From the NCBI GenBank assembly GCA_016550415.1, contig JABXGU010000452.1:1-14773 (forward strand): a stretch of DNA of 14,773 nucleotides, given 5' to 3'. The notes beneath the pieces were generated by a model. That model searched no databases. It saw only the letters and a program-made list of their open reading frames with translations, and was not told where the DNA came from. How positions within the stretch are numbered: the first letter of the stretch is position 1; every line of letters begins with the position of its first letter. Positions 4,581-14,466 of this stretch are shown here, piece by piece. The position numbers and the translations under genes are program-made. The DNA is from an archaeon. Lineage in GTDB: Archaea > Asgardarchaeota > Hermodarchaeia > Hermodarchaeales > Hermodarchaeaceae.

Positions 4581-5909
4581 TTAGGTTTGGATAGCATCAA
4601 TCCCAAGGATTTCAGAAAAGTCCAAGATTTCTTCCACAACATCCCCATAGACCATGTGTAAATGGTTTGATCTAAGGTGTTGAATGAAGAGGTCGGGATC
4701 ACCATCAAGACGGACGAAAGCATGGGGCCAACGATCGCGTGCTTCCTTAAACGTTTCTTTGGGCTGTGTGAAAGCGTCCCCAGTAGCCACATGAATTACA
4801 TATTCCCCTGCAAATCGGCTTAATCGTGCGAGAGTGACTGGACCTTCTTTGCAGCAGAAGGTTGGGCAGGCACCAGAACATTCACCCATATACTCGTATT
4901 GTGGGTTCCATTCCACATCCTTTGGGGAACTAGCCATTGTAGTTGCAATTGTTCCACAATTAACAAGACGCAGAGTGCCTGTATTCCTATCTAAATCGTT
5001 AACATCAGCGAATAAGACTGGACCATCAGTTAGAAGGTGTAGAATACGCATGGTGAGAGCCGCGTTCATATCTGCTTCACAGGACATCATGATTCCCTCA
5101 TCTATGAGAAACGCAAGAGCCATACATCCACTTACATAATTTCCAATGAATTCTGGTTGGCATTTGAAACCGCCAAAGGCATAATTCTCTGATTCCATTA
5201 GTTCCTTCAAGGCAATGTAGAGACGGATGCTCCTTTCCAAGATTTCATCAGAGACATTAACCGCACCATAAGTTTTCTTAGCCCAAGCCATTTTTTCCTT
5301 AACTTTATTCGCAGGGATTTTTTGAGCAGCCAAGTAGATACGAAGCATATCCACATGTTCAAGTTCAGTACCAAAGACATCCTTAATTTGGCTAAAATCA
5401 ACTGAAGCTGTTACCATTCCCATTGTCTTTCCTCCGATGACGACGGCCTTGCTGCGTGATAAGTCATCGAAGACCATTGCAGCACGAGAGTAGCTGGTAA
5501 TAGTACTAAGAACGGTGGGGTCTGTTGGCTCCCCAAAAACAAAGCGGTGTGTAAAGCCAAGTTCGTCAAGGCTACCATGTGTTATGGCAGCACCCACTAA
5601 ACTAAAGGCAGCTGGACTGCGATAACCATAGACTATACTTGGTAAACCAGTTGCCTGAACTGCAGAAACCACCATGGGTGCATAAACCCAGGTTCCAATA
5701 TTGTATATTATACTTTGGAGATGTTGATGCACCATATCTTCAGAGACACGAACTGCATCCTCCATTGTAAGAACAAGATCATTATGTGGCTTTACATCTA
5801 AAGGTTGCTTTTTCAGGGCTGCTAACAGTTCTTTATGTGCTTGTTTTGCTATGTCTGTGCGTTCACGAGGAAGAGAAAGTGTGATTAGACCAATTTTTGG
5901 TTTTGGCAA
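4581..5909 (-). CDS. L-fucose/L-arabinose isomerase-like protein
   Basis: A 442-residue member of the FucI/AraA-like sugar isomerase family, metal-dependent aldose-ketose isomerases, though many members have no assigned substrate. The likely metal-binding region is FGGFKCQPEF (E253) and SCEADMNAALTM (E278 or D280). The C-terminal SNHLHMVYGD (H416, H418) matches the conserved His and YGD of the family. GPVTLARLSRFAGEY (356-370) is a family hallmark. Two oddities stand out. A Cys cluster (C344, C348, C352, C353) sits just before GPVTLARL, and LVNCGT (315-320) has Asn where I would expect a His. The start is TTG at 5909 behind GAGGGAT. It is last in a minus-strand run after LarC, LarE and the HEAT protein, with a 136-base gap that may hold its own promoter. 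The substrate is unknown. Confidence 0.78.
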   Translation of the reverse strand: MPKPKIGLITLSLPRERTDIAKQAHKELLAALKKQPLDVKPHNDLVLTMEDAVRVSEDMVHQHLQSIIYNIGTWVYAPMVVSAVQATGLPSIVYGYRSPAAFSLVGAAITHGSLDELGFTHRFVFGEPTDPTVLSTITSYSRAAMVFDDLSRSKAVVIGGKTMGMVTASVDFSQIKDVFGTELEHVDMLRIYLAAQKIPANKVKEKMAWAKKTYGAVNVSDEILERSIRLYIALKELMESENYAFGGFKCQPEFIGNYVSGCMALAFLIDEGIMMSCEADMNAALTMRILHLLTDGPVLFADVNDLDRNTGTLRLVNCGTIATTMASSPKDVEWNPQYEYMGECSGACPTFCCKEGPVTLARLSRFAGEYVIHVATGDAFTQPKETFKEARDRWPHAFVRLDGDPDLFIQHLRSNHLHMVYGDVVEEILDFSEILGIDAIQT

Positions 5910-8909: not shown

Positions 8910-9695
8910 GTGATGGATATGACCCAACTTCGAGATATACTCGAACAACTAGCTCAAGGCAAGTGTACAATGGAAGAGGCTGAGAAGAAATTGCGTCTAT
9001 TCAACATCATTGAGATAGCACGCTTGGCAAAACTAGACATTCATCGTGAAGCTAGAAAGGGTATCCCTGAAGTAGTATGGGCACAACACAAGACAGTGGA
9101 TGACCTTGTAAAAATCATTCTAGCTGCAATAAAATCAACACAATTCCTTTTAATCAGCCATCTATCTTCAGATCAGGAGGAAGCGCTAAGGAAGAAACTT
9201 GGCACCAAGCTAGTTTTAGAAGTGTTCTCTGACGGTGAAATTGCTCTAGTTCGTCAACCCAATTATAAACCTCCGAAGAAAGGAGGAAAAGTGGGCATTA
9301 TTGCTGCAGGAACATCTGATCGGAGAGTCGCTGAATCAGCACAAGTAATGGCTGAGCAAATGGGATGTGAAGTTCTTGTTGCCTATGATGTGGGCGTCGC
9401 TGGTGTTCATCGTCTTTTTCCAGAATTGGAAGATATGATTGAAGAAGGCATCGATGTTCTCATAGTTGCTGCTGGCATGGAAGGCGCCCTTCCTTCCCTA
9501 GTCACAGGGTTGGTGGATATCCCAGTTATCGGACTCCCAGTTGCTACTGGATACGGCCTTGGTGCAGAGGGTTTGGGTGCTTTGATCTCTATGCTTCAGT
9601 CTTGTTCCCTCGGACTTGCTGTAGTTAACATCAATAACGGTGTAGGTGCTGGTGCTATCGCAGCACTAATTGCTAATCGTATTGCTAAAGGCTAA
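8910..9695 (+). CDS. larB: LarB, pyridinium-3,5-biscarboxylate mononucleotide synthase
   Basis: LarB carboxylates and hydrolyses nicotinic acid adenine dinucleotide, the first step of the nickel-pincer cofactor. The 261-residue protein has the short helical N-terminal part with LAQGKCTMEEAEKKL and a C-terminal domain related to the PurE carboxylase: GIIAAGTSDRRVAESA, VAYDVGVAGVHRLF, VLIVAAGMEGALPSLVTGL, IGLPVATGYG and NINNGVGAGAIAALIANRI. GTSD and GMEGALPSL are family signatures. The start is GTG at 8910 or ATG at 8913; GGAT at 8904-8907 is better spaced for the ATG, which would shorten the protein by one residue. It is transcribed away from LarC and LarE, and no LarA-type racemase lies nearby. 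Confidence 0.93.
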   Translation: MMDMTQLRDILEQLAQGKCTMEEAEKKLRLFNIIEIARLAKLDIHREARKGIPEVVWAQHKTVDDLVKIILAAIKSTQFLLISHLSSDQEEALRKKLGTKLVLEVFSDGEIALVRQPNYKPPKKGGKVGIIAAGTSDRRVAESAQVMAEQMGCEVLVAYDVGVAGVHRLFPELEDMIEEGIDVLIVAAGMEGALPSLVTGLVDIPVIGLPVATGYGLGAEGLGALISMLQSCSLGLAVVNINNGVGAGAIAALIANRIAKG

Positions 9696-9797: not shown

Positions 9798-10646
9798 ATG
9801 AACTCGACGAAGGTCAACATACGCTGTCCGGTGTGCGAGGTATCATCAGATTTGGAACTAGAGGACTCATTTCTTAGTAGCATCGAGTCAGGTGTTGCCC
9901 AGATAGAAATCCCCAAAGACCACATATGTAAACACCATTTCTTAGCATTTGTTGACCAAAATGGAGCTATCAGAGGTTATTCTCAAATCCACTTAACTGT
10001 TGAAAAATTACTCGAAGATCGTGCTCCGACACAGAAAGGTCCAACAATTCAGTCATTGGCTATTTCCCTTACAGGACTTGCTGATGTAATGGGTCAAGAA
10101 AACTTGATGAAAGTGCTTCACAACTTATTCCTTGGTCGCCGCATCCTAGTCATCGATGAAGATGAGCGATTCTATACTCAATTGCGGGCATTCCTCGTTA
10201 CTGCACTACCGCAAGGTGTTCTTGGTGCTGATGCTATCATACCTCTGACTCGAGTACGAACTATACGCGATCCTGATCTTATTGGAAAAGAAGACTTAGT
10301 TTATGACAGATTAAGCTCTGCAATCACAGAAGATCCCAGCACTGGTGAACCCCAACAATATATATCATCTCTAATGCGACGTATGATGAAAGTAAAAGAT
10401 CAGACTGCACAACAATTGATCCTAACAAATGAAGCTCGTAAATTAATGGAAATGGCCAGCTTTCTCCAAGACTGGTCAACTACTGAAGAAATAACTAATC
10501 CAAAGGACTTACGTGACAAACTGAGTAGCCAATTCAAAACCAAGGTTGAAAGGGATCTTTTCACTTTTATTGCTCAAATGGCACAACATCGCTATGGTCT
10601 TACACTTCCATCTAAAGGTGTTGACACCCTTCTCGACGAGTTCTGA
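9798..10646 (+). CDS. Zinc-binding-head protein with possible DENN-like body, next to Ras-like GTPases
   Basis: A 282-residue soluble protein that I do not recognise by name. Residues 8-62 hold CPVC (10-13) and then HICKHH (42-47), a likely zinc site, in a small beta-rich domain ending QNGAIRGYSQIHL. Residues 84-175 look like an alpha/beta domain: SLAISLTGLADVM, then ENLMKVLHNLFLGRRILVID (101-120), then a helix, then ADAIIPLTRV (144-153) and LVYDRLS (167-173). By eye the helix ending in L-GRRILVI, followed about 30 residues later by IIPL, resembles the core of eukaryotic DENN domains (LLLERRILFVS ... IPILP). DENN proteins activate or bind Rab GTPases. The C-terminal third is helical. It stands first in a plus-strand set with a membrane protein and two GTPases. 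The DENN reading is a hypothesis from pattern only; an unrelated Asgard domain is equally possible. Confidence 0.6.
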   Translation: MNSTKVNIRCPVCEVSSDLELEDSFLSSIESGVAQIEIPKDHICKHHFLAFVDQNGAIRGYSQIHLTVEKLLEDRAPTQKGPTIQSLAISLTGLADVMGQENLMKVLHNLFLGRRILVIDEDERFYTQLRAFLVTALPQGVLGADAIIPLTRVRTIRDPDLIGKEDLVYDRLSSAITEDPSTGEPQQYISSLMRRMMKVKDQTAQQLILTNEARKLMEMASFLQDWSTTEEITNPKDLRDKLSSQFKTKVERDLFTFIAQMAQHRYGLTLPSKGVDTLLDEF

Positions 10647-10687
10647 GCCTGAGAAAGTAGACACAAAACAAGAAATGTGGTGAAAAG

Positions 10688-11473
10688 ATGTCATTTGTAG
10701 ATTTGGCTAAACGTCACCTGATATATATTATCATAATGCTTTGCGTTGCTGTCATTGGGACATTTGGCATTATTTTCAAGCCTTTGCCCCCAGATCCACT
10801 AGGGTTGTCTTCAACATACGTTATGCTGTTAGGGCTATCAATGGTTGCGGTATTACTTCTTTGGGGAATTTCCGCCTATCTCTTCTACCGATGGTTTGCA
10901 ACTGAACGAAAATCCTTTGCTACACTGATATGGGCATTATCCTTCTTCATCTACGGAATACTATTTGTTGCAATGTGCTTCCAAGCTTTGGGAATGCCAT
11001 GGGCAAACATGAACGATCCAGTCCTCTTCTTTGCTTTCCGTGAAGTAATGATTTGGTTCCTTGCACTTCAATGGCTAGGAATTGCCATGCAACTTACTGA
11101 AAACATGTACATACGTTGGATTCCAGCCCTACTAATCCTAATATTTGGCTATATCTGGTTTGCTTTTGGTCTACTCATTGTCGCTGATATTGAGTATACA
11201 ATGTATGGCTTCACATATGGTATACTAATCCCCGTTGCATTCACCCTTGCATATAGTTTCTTCCTCTATGCTCGATCAGCTAAAATCAATGCTCCCTATT
11301 TCCTAGCTGTTGGTTTCACAGGACTAGCTATCTGCTATGGCGCTTGGGCACCATGGCATCCAGTACTGTTCTACTTCATCTGGTTCTTCCTCTTCGAAGC
11401 CTCACTGATTCCCATCGCCATCGGTTTTCCACTTCTGTCTCGAGATGTAGAACTCCGAAAACACCGAAGCTAG
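10688..11473 (+). CDS. Eight-helix integral membrane protein of unknown function
   Basis: A 261-residue, very hydrophobic protein with about eight membrane helices (near residues 10-30, 44-68, 78-100, 112-135, 142-165, 172-194, 204-220 and 224-250). There is no cleavable signal peptide and no large soluble domain. Aromatic residues are plentiful (for example FFIYG, FGYIWFAFGLL and FYFIWFFLFEAS), and the charged residues lie mainly in the loops, with a basic C-terminal RKHRS. I see no transporter or enzyme motif. ATG 10688 follows GGTGA at 4 bases, and the gene starts 41 bases after the zinc-head gene, so the two are likely co-transcribed. The next genes are Ras-like GTPases, so a role as their membrane platform is possible but not shown. 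Confidence 0.7.
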   Translation: MSFVDLAKRHLIYIIIMLCVAVIGTFGIIFKPLPPDPLGLSSTYVMLLGLSMVAVLLLWGISAYLFYRWFATERKSFATLIWALSFFIYGILFVAMCFQALGMPWANMNDPVLFFAFREVMIWFLALQWLGIAMQLTENMYIRWIPALLILIFGYIWFAFGLLIVADIEYTMYGFTYGILIPVAFTLAYSFFLYARSAKINAPYFLAVGFTGLAICYGAWAPWHPVLFYFIWFFLFEASLIPIAIGFPLLSRDVELRKHRS

Positions 11474-11561
11474 CCAACAACGAAATTAGTCATTCCTATA
11501 ACCGTCTTCATCTGTAAAATACGATGTTTCAAATACATAGAATTGGAAAGGGGACGATAAA

Positions 11562-12113
11562 TTGGAGGCAGAAAAAATCAGTCAACTAAAACCTGTACTG
11601 AAGCTAATAGTGTTCGGTGAAGGCGGTGTAGGAAAGACAACCATGATTCATCGATTTATAACAGGAACTTACCTTGAAGCACGGATGACTGTGGGTAGTG
11701 GCTTTGCGACGAAGAATGTTGAGGTGGATGGGAATACAGTAACTATATCCATCTGGGATTTTGCTGGTGAAGAACGCTTCCGAATTTTAATGCCAAAATA
11801 TTGTATTGGCGCTCATGGCGGTATTTTAGCCTTTGATTTAACAAGAACCGACACCTTCGTAAAACTAGATGCATGGCTTAAAATCGTTCGCGAAGGCTGC
11901 CCACAAATTCCGATTTTATTAGTAGGCAACAAAAGTGACATGAAATCCTTTGTCTCCCGTGAAAACGCTCTGGAGTTTGTTAAACGCAATTCAATCAATG
12001 GCTATCTAGAGACCAGTTCAAAGGATGACTCAAATGTTACTGAAACTTTCGAAAAAATCGCTGAACTCATGTGGAGTCATTCGAAGAAGAACATCCAACA
12101 GTTATATGGCTAG
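11562..12113 (+). CDS. Ras/Rab-like small GTPase, first of tandem pair
   Basis: A 183-residue small GTPase of the Ras superfamily. G1 is GEGGVGKTT (19-27), the switch I Thr is in MTVGSGF (T43), G3 is WDFAGEERF (65-73), G4 is NKSD (123-126) and G5 is ETSSK (150-154). So it should bind GTP and be soluble. The position of Ras Gln61, the catalytic residue, is Glu (E70). The C-terminus (NIQQLYG) has no Cys, so prenyl anchoring as in eukaryotic Rabs is not expected. The start is TTG at 11562 behind GGAAAGGGG. It lies 88 bases after the membrane protein. The second GTPase downstream is about 58% identical by eye over some 157 residues, so the pair arose by duplication. Partners and pathway are unknown. 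Confidence 0.92.
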   Translation: MEAEKISQLKPVLKLIVFGEGGVGKTTMIHRFITGTYLEARMTVGSGFATKNVEVDGNTVTISIWDFAGEERFRILMPKYCIGAHGGILAFDLTRTDTFVKLDAWLKIVREGCPQIPILLVGNKSDMKSFVSRENALEFVKRNSINGYLETSSKDDSNVTETFEKIAELMWSHSKKNIQQLYG

Positions 12114-12143
12114 TTCCAATATCGGGATTATCTAGGTCAATAA

Positions 12144-12174
12144 TTTTTTATTCATACTTTTTTTGTCTATTTTT
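12144..12174 (+). terminator. T-rich terminator tract after first GTPase gene
   Basis: Three T runs (six, seven and five T at 12144-12149, 12158-12164 and 12170-12174) lie 30-60 bases after the stop codon, with no stem before them. This is the usual form of an archaeal intrinsic terminator. If it works, the second GTPase gene has its own promoter in the remaining 160 bases of the gap, where I see no clear TATA box. Confidence 0.5.
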
Positions 12175-12333
12175 CATATAGAATTCATTACAGGACCGTG
12201 TTGAACTTCACAATTTTGATATCAAAGATAGGCTTTTTACTTGTCATTGTAACTATTGATAAAGAAAAATTCAATACCCAATCGGTCTTCCAGCATGTTG
12301 AAGAATAACTAATTCGAGGGATTCACCACGACA

Positions 12334-12918
12334 TTGCCTTCACCGGAAATGGGCTTGGTTTCTGATGCAGAGGAGCGCACTATCCGGCGAAAAAACATCT
12401 TGAAACTATTAGTTCTAGGCGATGGTGGAGTTGGCAAAACAACTCTTATCCATCGCTTTTTAACAGGAGAATATCTTGATCAACGAATGACAGTGGGTGC
12501 TGGTTTTGCAACTCGTGACATTCAAATTAATGGTGATACGATTACGCTGACTATCTGGGATTTTGCCGGTGAGGAACGTTTTCGCTTCATCTTGCCAAGA
12601 TACTGTCTTGGCTCACATGGTTGCATTCTTGCCTTTGACCTAAGTCGTCCTGCTACATTCCATCATTTGGATGAATGGCTAGGAGTTGTTCGTAAAAAAA
12701 CAGATAATATCCCAATCCTACTCGTTGGAACTAAGTGCGACATTGTAATGACGATTCAAGAAAAAGCTGATGAATATGTTGCAAACCATTCACTATCCGG
12801 TTTCTTGTCCACTAGCTCCAAAGAAGGTGTTAACGTAGATGAGGTCTTCGAATTAATTGCCCATCTAATGTGGACACGCACTCTAGAACAATTTCAATCC
12901 TACAGTTCCACAGATTAA
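12334..12918 (+). CDS. Ras/Rab-like small GTPase, second of tandem pair
   Basis: A 194-residue Ras-superfamily GTPase. G1 is GDGGVGKTT (29-37), the switch I Thr is in MTVGAGF (T53), G3 is WDFAGEERF (75-83), G4 is TKCD (133-136) and G5 is STSSK (159-163). TKxD instead of NKxD also occurs in Rho-family proteins, so nucleotide binding should be intact. As in its neighbour, the Gln61 position is Glu (E80) and the C-terminus (SYSSTD) lacks Cys. The first 20 residues are a charged tail absent from the first GTPase. The start is TTG at 12334, with GAGGG 13 bases before it; ATG at 12349 is an alternative but is farther from that site. It is separated from the first GTPase by 220 bases, so it may be regulated on its own. 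Confidence 0.92.
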   Translation: MPSPEMGLVSDAEERTIRRKNILKLLVLGDGGVGKTTLIHRFLTGEYLDQRMTVGAGFATRDIQINGDTITLTIWDFAGEERFRFILPRYCLGSHGCILAFDLSRPATFHHLDEWLGVVRKKTDNIPILLVGTKCDIVMTIQEKADEYVANHSLSGFLSTSSKEGVNVDEVFELIAHLMWTRTLEQFQSYSSTD

Positions 12919-13104: not shown

Positions 13105-14466
13105 ATGACAAGTAAAGAAAGACCACCAACCGAAGAAGAACTTCTTGAAAAAGCAAAACAACCTGCTAAAGATGCAATGATTATACACCCCTATTATCGG
13201 GGTAAAATTCAAGTCGCGCCAAAATGTGCTATCCGGGGATTCGAAGACTTCGCCATCTACTACACTCCTGGCGTCGCTGCTCCCTGTCGAGATATCCAAG
13301 CAAATCCCGAGAAAGTATGGGAGCATACGAATCGAGCTAATATGGTCGCTGTAGTCTCTGATGGAAGCAGAGTATTGGGGCTTGGCAACATCGGTGCAAA
13401 TGCTGCAATGCCAGTTATGGAAGGAAAAGCCCTTATTTTCAAATATTTGGGTGGTGTCGACGCAGTACCAATTTGTCTTGACACTCAAGATCCTGAAAAC
13501 TTCATTCGTACCGTGAAATGGCTCCGTCCCAGTTTTGGTGGTATCAATCTTGAGGATATCGAGAAACCCAAATGCTTCAATATTCTCCATCGTCTCCGAA
13601 CTGATATGGACATACCTGTGTTTCATGACGATCAACAGGGGACAGCAACCATCATCCTCGCAGGTCTCAAGGGTGCTTTAAGACATGTGGGCAAGGCGCT
13701 TGATCAGGTGCAAATTGCTATTTTGGGTGTTGGTGCTGCAAATACGAGTACTGCACATCTTCTCATAGCTGCAGGTGTTCCATCTGGTAATCTCATATTG
13801 TGTGATAGAAAGGGTCTCCTTTACAAGGGTCGCGAGGATTTGAAAGAACTAAGAGATACTGAACATGAAAAATATGACCTCGCTATTTTAACCAATGAAG
13901 AACAACGAACTGGTGACTTTGGCGAAGCTATGCGGAACGCTGATGTATGTATTTCTGCATCTACGCCAAAGCCGGGTCTAATCAAGAATGAGTGGGTGAA
14001 ATCGATGGCATCAGATGCCATTGTATTTGCTTGTGCAAATCCCCTTCCAGAGATTTGGCCATGGGAGGCTAAGGCAGCTGGTGCTCGTGTCATTGGGACT
14101 GGGCGAAGTGATTTTCCAAATCAAATAAACAACAGCCTGGGATTTCCTGCCATCTTCCGTGGAGCATTAGATGTACGAGCAAGGACAATCACTGATGATA
14201 TGTGCATCGCTGCTGCAGAGGCACTTGCAGATTTAGCTGAAGAAAAGGGGATGAAAGATGATCATATAATCCCATCAATGCAGGACTGGGAGTTATACCC
14301 AAGGGAAGCTGTCGCTGTAGCTACAAAGGCGATGGAACAAGGCGTTGCACGAATACAAAAGGAACCTGAGGAACTGCTCAAGCATGCCCGCCACCTCATT
14401 AAGTCTTCAATTGATGTAACACAACTACTCATGGACACTGGCTTCATTCCAAAGGGTCCAATTTGA
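13105..14466 (+). CDS. NAD(P)-dependent malic enzyme, short form
   Basis: Oxidative decarboxylation of L-malate to pyruvate and CO2 with NAD(P) reduction, in the cytoplasm. The 453 residues match the short bacterial/archaeal form without the phosphotransacetylase domain of MaeB. Visible are YYTPGVAAP (Y53 likely general acid), GLGNIGANAAMPVMEGK (K108 likely base), the metal ligands NLEDI (E150, D151) and FHDDQQGTA (D175 or D176), and the Rossmann loop LGVGAANTS (207-215). In the loop, Asn stands where most relatives have Gly (GAGAAG). Asp after the second strand (LILCDRKG) hints at NAD preference, weakly. FACANPLPEIWP and NQINNSLGFPAIFRGALD are strong family signatures. ATG 13105 has a GGAG about 11 bases upstream. 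A HAD phosphatase gene follows at once. Confidence 0.95.
   Translation: MTSKERPPTEEELLEKAKQPAKDAMIIHPYYRGKIQVAPKCAIRGFEDFAIYYTPGVAAPCRDIQANPEKVWEHTNRANMVAVVSDGSRVLGLGNIGANAAMPVMEGKALIFKYLGGVDAVPICLDTQDPENFIRTVKWLRPSFGGINLEDIEKPKCFNILHRLRTDMDIPVFHDDQQGTATIILAGLKGALRHVGKALDQVQIAILGVGAANTSTAHLLIAAGVPSGNLILCDRKGLLYKGREDLKELRDTEHEKYDLAILTNEEQRTGDFGEAMRNADVCISASTPKPGLIKNEWVKSMASDAIVFACANPLPEIWPWEAKAAGARVIGTGRSDFPNQINNSLGFPAIFRGALDVRARTITDDMCIAAAEALADLAEEKGMKDDHIIPSMQDWELYPREAVAVATKAMEQGVARIQKEPEELLKHARHLIKSSIDVTQLLMDTGFIPKGPI

Follow-up and report, generated by a model that had tools for sequence, protein, structure and literature searches.

A zinc-head protein with a predicted DENN fold beside a seven-helix membrane protein and two Ras-type GTPases in Asgard archaeal DNA

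Asgard archaea are close relatives of complex cells, in which DENN proteins control the switches of membrane traffic. The eukaryotic DENN modules, e.g., those of folliculin, DENND1A/B, DENND10, C9orf72, and SMCR8, have a DENN domain followed by a d-DENN domain. We have analysed a 14,773-nt contig stretch of Asgard (Promethearchaeota) DNA, the window, in which four consecutive plus-strand genes encode a zinc-head protein (A), a membrane protein (B) and two Ras-type GTPases (R1 and R2). Residues 85-267 of A are predicted to have the same order, DENN then d-DENN. A differs from the eukaryotic modules in that a zinc head replaces the recognised longin (u-DENN) domain, in a sequence identity of 9-14% in the DENN rows of the structure comparison, in its archaeal origin, and in that its activity is predicted only. 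Our tentative reading is that A, B, and R1, together with the adjacent R2, may constitute a membrane-tethered control unit for small GTPases in which A binds R1 and/or R2 to alter the nucleotide state. A DENN fold in a multi-copy Asgard family would move the origin of a main class of Rab regulators to a time before the eukaryotes.

Prokaryotic Ras-like switches with encoded regulators are known. Myxococcus has MglA-MglB and RomR/RomX (PMC3521125, PMC10933270). There, MglB is a roadblock GTPase-activating protein (GAP). In the window the putative regulator is predicted to have a DENN fold, and the gene next to it encodes a protein with seven transmembrane helices (7TM). In Asgard archaea, roadblock, longin, and TRAPPC3 regulators of small GTPases have been described (Tran et al., 2024, PMC10933270). 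R1 and R2 are likewise of the Ras type, and longin and roadblock relatives adjoin B in other genomes. According to that paper, which does not contain the word DENN, GTPase genes in MK-D1 do not as a rule share operons with regulators, unlike the subfamily of R1 and R2, which carries Glu at the position of Gln61 and is often gene-paired with zinc-head proteins. A search of archaea in 2016 with Pfam regulator models, DENN included, gave mostly scattered marginal hits, absence and divergence not being separable (PMC4915359). We found no report of DENN folds in archaea in the accessible portions of the literature searched, the scope of which left out preprints and the majority of subscription papers. 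Among preprints there are surveys of Asgard proteomes based on structure, and DENN folds could figure in these.

The four genes and the predicted fold of protein A

Calling of open reading frames (ORFs) placed A at 9798-10646 (282 aa, ATG start), B at 10688-11473 (261 aa, ATG start), R1 at 11562-12113 (183 aa, TTG start), and R2 at 12334-12918 (194 aa, TTG start), all on the plus strand. This confirms the four consecutive plus-strand genes over 9798-12918 that the original prediction had described. The intergenic gaps are 41 nt (A-B), 88 nt (B-R1), and 220 nt (R1-R2). Because the last gap holds T6, T7, and T5 runs 3' of R1 (12144-12174, plus strand), read from the sequence as a putative archaeal transcription stop, the set may be divided into an A-B-R1 transcript and a separate R2 transcript. 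Scans of the bacterial type, applied here to an archaeal host, found no stem-loop terminator at this T-rich stretch, and sigma-70-type promoter sites no more numerous than in shuffles.

The N-terminal region of A, residues 1-65 (9798-9992, plus strand), is likely a CCCH zinc head, because C10, C13, and C44 are kept in 34 of 34 members of the family A alignment and H46 in 32 of 34. The zinc head had been claimed before. It is homologous to the heads of zinc-head proteins which are encoded beside R-type GTPases elsewhere (hhalign E=4.4e-5, probability 69%, and 3.5e-10, probability 97%; heads alone aligned).

The DENN assignment is carried by structure comparison. The AF2 model of A, the one family member for which the DENN fold was modelled, has a pLDDT of 79.6 and a pTM of 0.67, with low confidence at residues 65-87; its alignment comprised 66 sequences, 64 of which belong to one close group with 16-20% identity to A. 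Foldseek and VIA matched this model to DENN proteins, the PDB chain identities of C9orf72 and SMCR8 being partly inferred from residue numbers. In VIA, residues 85-267 (10050-10598, plus strand) align with residues 343-558 of folliculin. The model has the central alpha/beta domain of DENN and, directly behind it and within the aligned region, an all-helical d-DENN domain with helices at 187-198, 202-229, 235-246, and 252-266. The zinc head stands in the position of the N-terminal longin domain, and no DENN row in VIA begins before residue 59. In the full-length model the secondary structure of the head is predicted in the order E-E-H-E-E-E-H, which we take to resemble the longin order. In common with the eukaryotic DENN modules, the family A alignment shows no conserved P-loop motif.

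At the level of sequence the picture is different. Pfam Folliculin_C matches A with E=0.019 and 14.9 bits, below the cut-off of 27. A PDB search with the sequence profile of A did not find DENN proteins and gave chance-like matches only, ABC transporters foremost; NCBIfam has no match for A or B. The DENN-like pattern which had been suggested for A thus remains sub-threshold as a sequence hit, yet is supported at the level of the fold. On this model a DENN fold is predicted for A; a role as GTPase regulator is putative, with guanine nucleotide exchange (GEF) activity as a candidate function.

Membrane protein B and its partners

The AF2 model of B (pLDDT 83.0, pTM 0.80) shows eight helices, in agreement with the earlier description. 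Seven of them, residues 40-259 (10805-11464, plus strand), form a core with the topology of G-protein-coupled receptors (GPCRs) and microbial rhodopsins, predicted N-out/C-in. B differs from these proteins by the additional N-terminal helix, by the absence of any Pfam family at E<=10, and by the absence of DRY and NPxxY, the motifs of class A GPCRs. A retinal-binding Lys is not present within the membrane in the last helix (226-260); the sole Lys of this helix, residue 258, stands at its C-terminal end and not at a position within the membrane. The most conserved residues of B are found preferentially in its outer half and in one of the outer loops. The model suggests a polytopic membrane protein of receptor-like topology.

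Members of the B family are present in 24 of 227 Asgard genomes, and those relatives of B which bear names are Asgard in every case. We inspected 27 loci besides the window, i.e., L001-L007 and 20 further regions, L115-L134. Several end at contig edges, the ORF list of L133 lacks B, and in L004 and L007 B is partial. For L115-L134 the neighbours were assessed visually and with the Ras and family A profiles, some also by a Pfam scan. The partners of B vary. On the same strand, a protein with a domain termed X adjoins B with a 7-nt overlap in L117 and L121-L124 (cut in L119); in L005 the X domain is fused to an Arf GTPase, and a similar protein occurs in L130. A longin-like protein followed by a roadblock protein (Robl_LC7 E=2.3e-14) adjoins B in L118, and a longin-like protein in L003, where two Ras/zinc-head pairs lie on the other side of B; "longin-like" is our own reading, Pfam giving nothing for L118 and Longin at E=0.03 for L003. 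L006 has a longin-DENN-type protein on the same strand, and in L001 a PAS-histidine kinase is encoded upstream of B. In the remaining B loci no GTPase-type partner was seen by eye or with the two profiles. Frame or stop damage in several genomes has cut some neighbours (e.g., L119, L174, L175). The B-linked X subfamily (E<1e-80) is found in six of the 227 genomes, each time adjoining B, and the next match elsewhere has E=1.4e-45; five of the six genomes supplied the profile, which makes their scores high by construction. Homology of the Loki X domain to a folliculin-type longin domain was not detected (E=0.57). About 3 kb from B, a Hermodarchaeal gene set (L002:13953-16255 and L007:3463-5762) encodes a zinc-head protein, a MinD-like ATPase, and a 320-aa protein, the start of which appears DENN-like by eye.

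Some of these otherwise dissimilar partners end alike. The extreme C-terminus of A, GVDTLLDEF (10617-10643, plus strand), resembles that of the L001 kinase, a protein unrelated to A, which ends in GIETLLDDF. The longin-like partner in L003 ends in KMDKWVDSF, the X-GTPase in L005 in GFDDFLDKF, and P0002 in RIESLLDEF. The soluble proteins with acidic-aromatic tails beside B are thus L001:942-2078, L003:10850-11284, L005:6441-7940, and A itself. Among complete same-strand B neighbours of at least 120 aa with a gap of up to 110 nt, endings of the form h[DE]x[FW] occur in 4/24 compared to 6/1177 other ORFs (p=2.4e-5), in 4/16 when orthologues are collapsed (p=4.3e-6), and in 3/14 when the window is excluded (p=1.0e-4). 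A final F or W is found in 12/24 against 105/1177 (collapsed 7/16, p=3.0e-4). Because the motif was picked after being seen, these p values are descriptive and not proof. The LLDEF tail is not common to the whole of family A; most members end otherwise. As an alternative to binding by B, the tail of A may simply anchor the protein in the membrane as an amphipathic segment, which for family A generally is as likely, because many members have other hydrophobic tails.

A far-reaching interpretation, which we regard as improbable, would be that an Asgard 7TM receptor of GPCR topology recruits interchangeable cytosolic partners (DENN, longin, longin-GTPase, histidine kinase) via a common C-terminal tail, in the way that GPCRs hold G-alpha by its C-terminus, and that the DENN partner activates Glu61-type Ras proteins. 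This would amount to a 7TM-DENN-Ras pathway predating eukaryotes, with a zinc head replacing the longin domain.

The GTPases, linkage in other genomes, and rival explanations

R1 and R2 score well above the Pfam Ras cut-off of 21.6 (PF00071; R1 E=2.1e-40, 138.4 bits; R2 E=3.2e-38, 131.3 bits), are 54% identical to each other, and possess the G1, G3, G4, and G5 boxes, i.e., the P-loop GEGGVGKT/GDGGVGKT, WDFAGE, NKSD/TKCD, and SSK. They are the paralogous Ras-like pair which had been proposed. The catalytic Gln61 is replaced by Glu70 in R1 (codon 11769-11771) and by Glu80 in R2. This Glu, the T-rich tract behind R1, and the C-terminal tail of A had not been mentioned in the original prediction. 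R-profile ORFs in all examined loci number 37, of which 35 are readable; 27, R1 and R2 included, have Glu at this position and 8 have Gln. None of the 35 has a Cys within the last eight residues, R1 and R2 again included, and the claim that both lack a prenylation Cys holds. The archaeal Rab-like proteins of PMC4915359 likewise have no C-terminal prenylation Cys. A duplication confined to the window is not favoured as the origin of the pair, since R1 falls outside a group of R2 and seven syntenic R proteins (84/82, weak, with long branches).

From the predicted domains and folds, the Glu61-type subfamily, the pairing of zinc-head proteins with GTPases, and the similar tails of some B partners we infer physical contact, a direction of regulation, and sensing as follows. 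B, with its 7TM receptor topology, would be the membrane component and possibly a sensor of something outside. A would be held at the cytosolic face of B, probably by its amphipathic C-terminal tail. Contact of its DENN part with R1 and/or R2 would then change the nucleotide state of these GTPases, exchange activity being likelier than GAP activity. Having no lipid anchor, the GTPases would reach the membrane by joining B-A and be switched there.

How does this compare with related genomes? We examined 20 R-centred regions from the 227 genomes (R-score ranks 3-22 plus rank 35, which is L184 of G227; ranks 1-2 are in L003), a sample which is not independent as several regions are orthologous pairs from related genomes. 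In seven of the 20, a LarB gene, one R gene, and a malic enzyme gene occur together, contiguously in L169, L170, L177, and L179 and with one or two genes between in L171, L172, and L173; A and B are there in none. R2 occupies the place of the single R of these relatives, before the malic enzyme. Since seven relatives keep this arrangement without A and B, the locus is old, and A, B, and a second R were added to it, or kept where others lost them. The complete quartet was seen in none of the 20 R-centred regions and in none of the 27 other B loci, several of the latter ended by contig edges and the contigs of P0002 and P0004 (B 72% identical) lying outside this sample. A comparison of gene neighbourhoods across Asgard genomes, the check suggested with the original prediction, thus does not support a conserved, self-contained four-gene module. 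Of the two findings that the prediction named as refuting it together, absent linkage and absent contact, the first holds for the quartet.

The linkage of component classes is a different matter. Same-strand zinc-head neighbours are present for 12 of the 22 R genes in the 20 regions (11/21 without L184). These regions contain 252 ORFs, among which there are 12 zinc-head ORFs, all twelve the R-paired ones; one of the two zinc-head profiles used was built from such R-linked partners. The paired R proteins, L003 included, are distributed over about seven tree groups. Together with the longin, roadblock, DENN, and GTPase-type proteins beside B in several loci, this partly supports the earlier suggestion of joint action, in terms of classes and not of a conserved quartet.

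The single sequence of A retrieved just one close relative (54%) among 5.8 billion proteins, encoded on a contig of 2.3 kb; family A was therefore reached via a genome search and a profile. The genome search gave matches in 94 of the 227 genomes, in some cases to the head only. The profile gave 145 matches at E<=1e-5; among the 120 matches listed most form one close group. Full-length A ORFs were identified in 58 of 60 fetched A-centred regions (none listed in L056 and L090), and these 60 regions and the window contain 63 full-length A genes. Pfam scans of 34 members gave Folliculin_C twice, a zinc-ribbon model three times, and otherwise single weak matches. A linkage to Ras genes as a rule for family A is rejected: they adjoin A in 1/113 immediate-neighbour cases vs 11/495 at distances 2-6, the one case being L047, the closest relative of A in the searched genomes. 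Multi-pass membrane proteins, counted with a simple hydropathy window, make up 35/113 (31%) of the immediate neighbours vs 10-15% at distances 2-6; about half of them are one orthologous four-helix protein. The 7TM class accounts for 18/114 neighbours at distance 1 vs 18/472 at distances 3-8 (Fisher p=1.9e-5, window included) and occurs in 8 of 17 sequence clusters. Homology of these 7TM neighbours to B was not detectable (the best hhalign value, across 18 columns, was E=0.011; hmmsearch gave E=0.0097 with L106 and >=15 with the rest).

Two side observations concern family A. In L048, L050-L055, L060, L061, L063, L068, L071, L074, L077, L079, L085, and L100, the gene directly upstream of the family member encodes a conserved membrane protein, some 155-160 aa long, with four hydrophobic segments (MPIRIRW...). 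In Helarchaeota, three members are extended at the N-terminus by a domain of some 120 aa (L104:7350-8804, L105:7947-9407, L106:7341-8810), roadblock-like by eye, with no Pfam match for L104 and weak unrelated ones for L105; two of these three proteins terminate in SSWFDKW and SGWLDNW.

The same data speak for the strongest rival, in which A and B are a receptor-adaptor pair that lies by chance at an old LarB-GTPase-malic enzyme locus, R1 and R2 take no part, and the targets of A are GTPases with genes elsewhere in the genome. Seven relatives keep the old locus alone, family A prefers 7TM-class over Ras neighbours, and Asgard genomes possess many potential targets, with 8-113 first-look candidate Ras genes per genome among the genomes listed. 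We nevertheless consider it unlikely. A, B, and R1 follow one another with short gaps, a second R was not seen there in the seven relatives, and the R subfamily is often paired with zinc-head proteins. Further, the 7TM enrichment is weak when restricted to the same strand (11/85 vs 12/205, p=0.04, with the window among the counts).

Distinctly less likely is that A is a GAP or a GTP-state scaffold of the folliculin/SMCR8 kind and not an exchange factor. FLCN and SMCR8 work with a longin-domain Arg, which in A is absent or replaced by the zinc head. Glu at the Gln61 position alters the usual GAP chemistry, and Ras Q61E hydrolyses GTP faster by itself; with such faster self-hydrolysis, exchange would be the limiting step.

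In the reading that we prefer, a control unit of A, B, and R1, the significance lies in the prediction of a DENN fold for an Asgard family that is present in multiple copies and frequently neighbours multi-pass membrane proteins, and in the zinc-head/GTPase pairing. Both would offer candidates for the means by which Asgard archaea govern their many Ras-type switches without lipid anchors. Some of the pieces recur side by side in related microbes although the quartet itself is not conserved, and this style of control may predate complex cells.

Other Asgard DENN-type proteins and flanking genes

The gene just before B in L006 (Helarchaeota) encodes a 316-aa longin-DENN-type protein, the end of which overlaps the B ORF as counted from its first start codon. 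It has matches in 128 of the 227 genomes, many to the head only. A longin-like head is seen in six relatives of full length (L136-L141); Pfam Folliculin scores 25.2, 23.7, and 22.4 bits in the three proteins scanned, against a cut-off of 23.3. The region behind the L006-type head aligns in register with the DENN/d-DENN region of A, which is borderline (hhalign E=0.0091 across 118 columns at a probability of 4.5%); further alignments to the A profile gave E=0.23-0.81, and with a wider L006 alignment (E=0.28) the match was lost. That the DENN resemblance of A reflects nothing but a shared alpha/beta, degenerate P-loop-like core with helices, A being unrelated to DENN and GTPases, is very improbable: the DENN rows in VIA are 3-7 Z units higher, include d-DENN and cover 85-267, these other Asgard proteins join a Folliculin-like head to a region weakly aligning with that of A, and some P-loop-like resemblance is expected because the central DENN domain is itself P-loop-like without the binding residues (PMC3521125, available part).

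The L136-L141 proteins (G062, G063, G066, G067, G069, G070; e.g., L137:1279-2418), with about 380-390 aa, a longin-like head, and a DENN/d-DENN-like region, are, judged by sequence, possibly full tripartite DENN modules in archaea. L006-type heads are also fused to Ras GTPases (L142:895-1953, L143:973-2025, and neighbours), and in some loci two such fusion genes are arranged head to tail.

The four genes of the window are bounded by two synteny anchors outside the set, both on the plus strand: a LarB-like (AIR-carboxylase) gene at 8910-9695 (Pfam AIRC E=1.5e-18) on the left and a malic enzyme gene at 13105-14466 (Pfam malic E=9.3e-29) on the right. Upstream are genes of prenyl-lipid and quinone type and a Lar-type (nickel cofactor) set, for which the gene names are inferred. 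LarB, the malic enzyme, and a protein similar to L-fucose/arabinose isomerase (FucI-like, 4581-5909, Fucose_iso_C E=1.6e-19) have 76-81% identity to proteins in the examined Asgard loci. The FucI-like protein in particular is 77-81% identical to proteins near the Lar genes of the relatives L171, L173, and L179.

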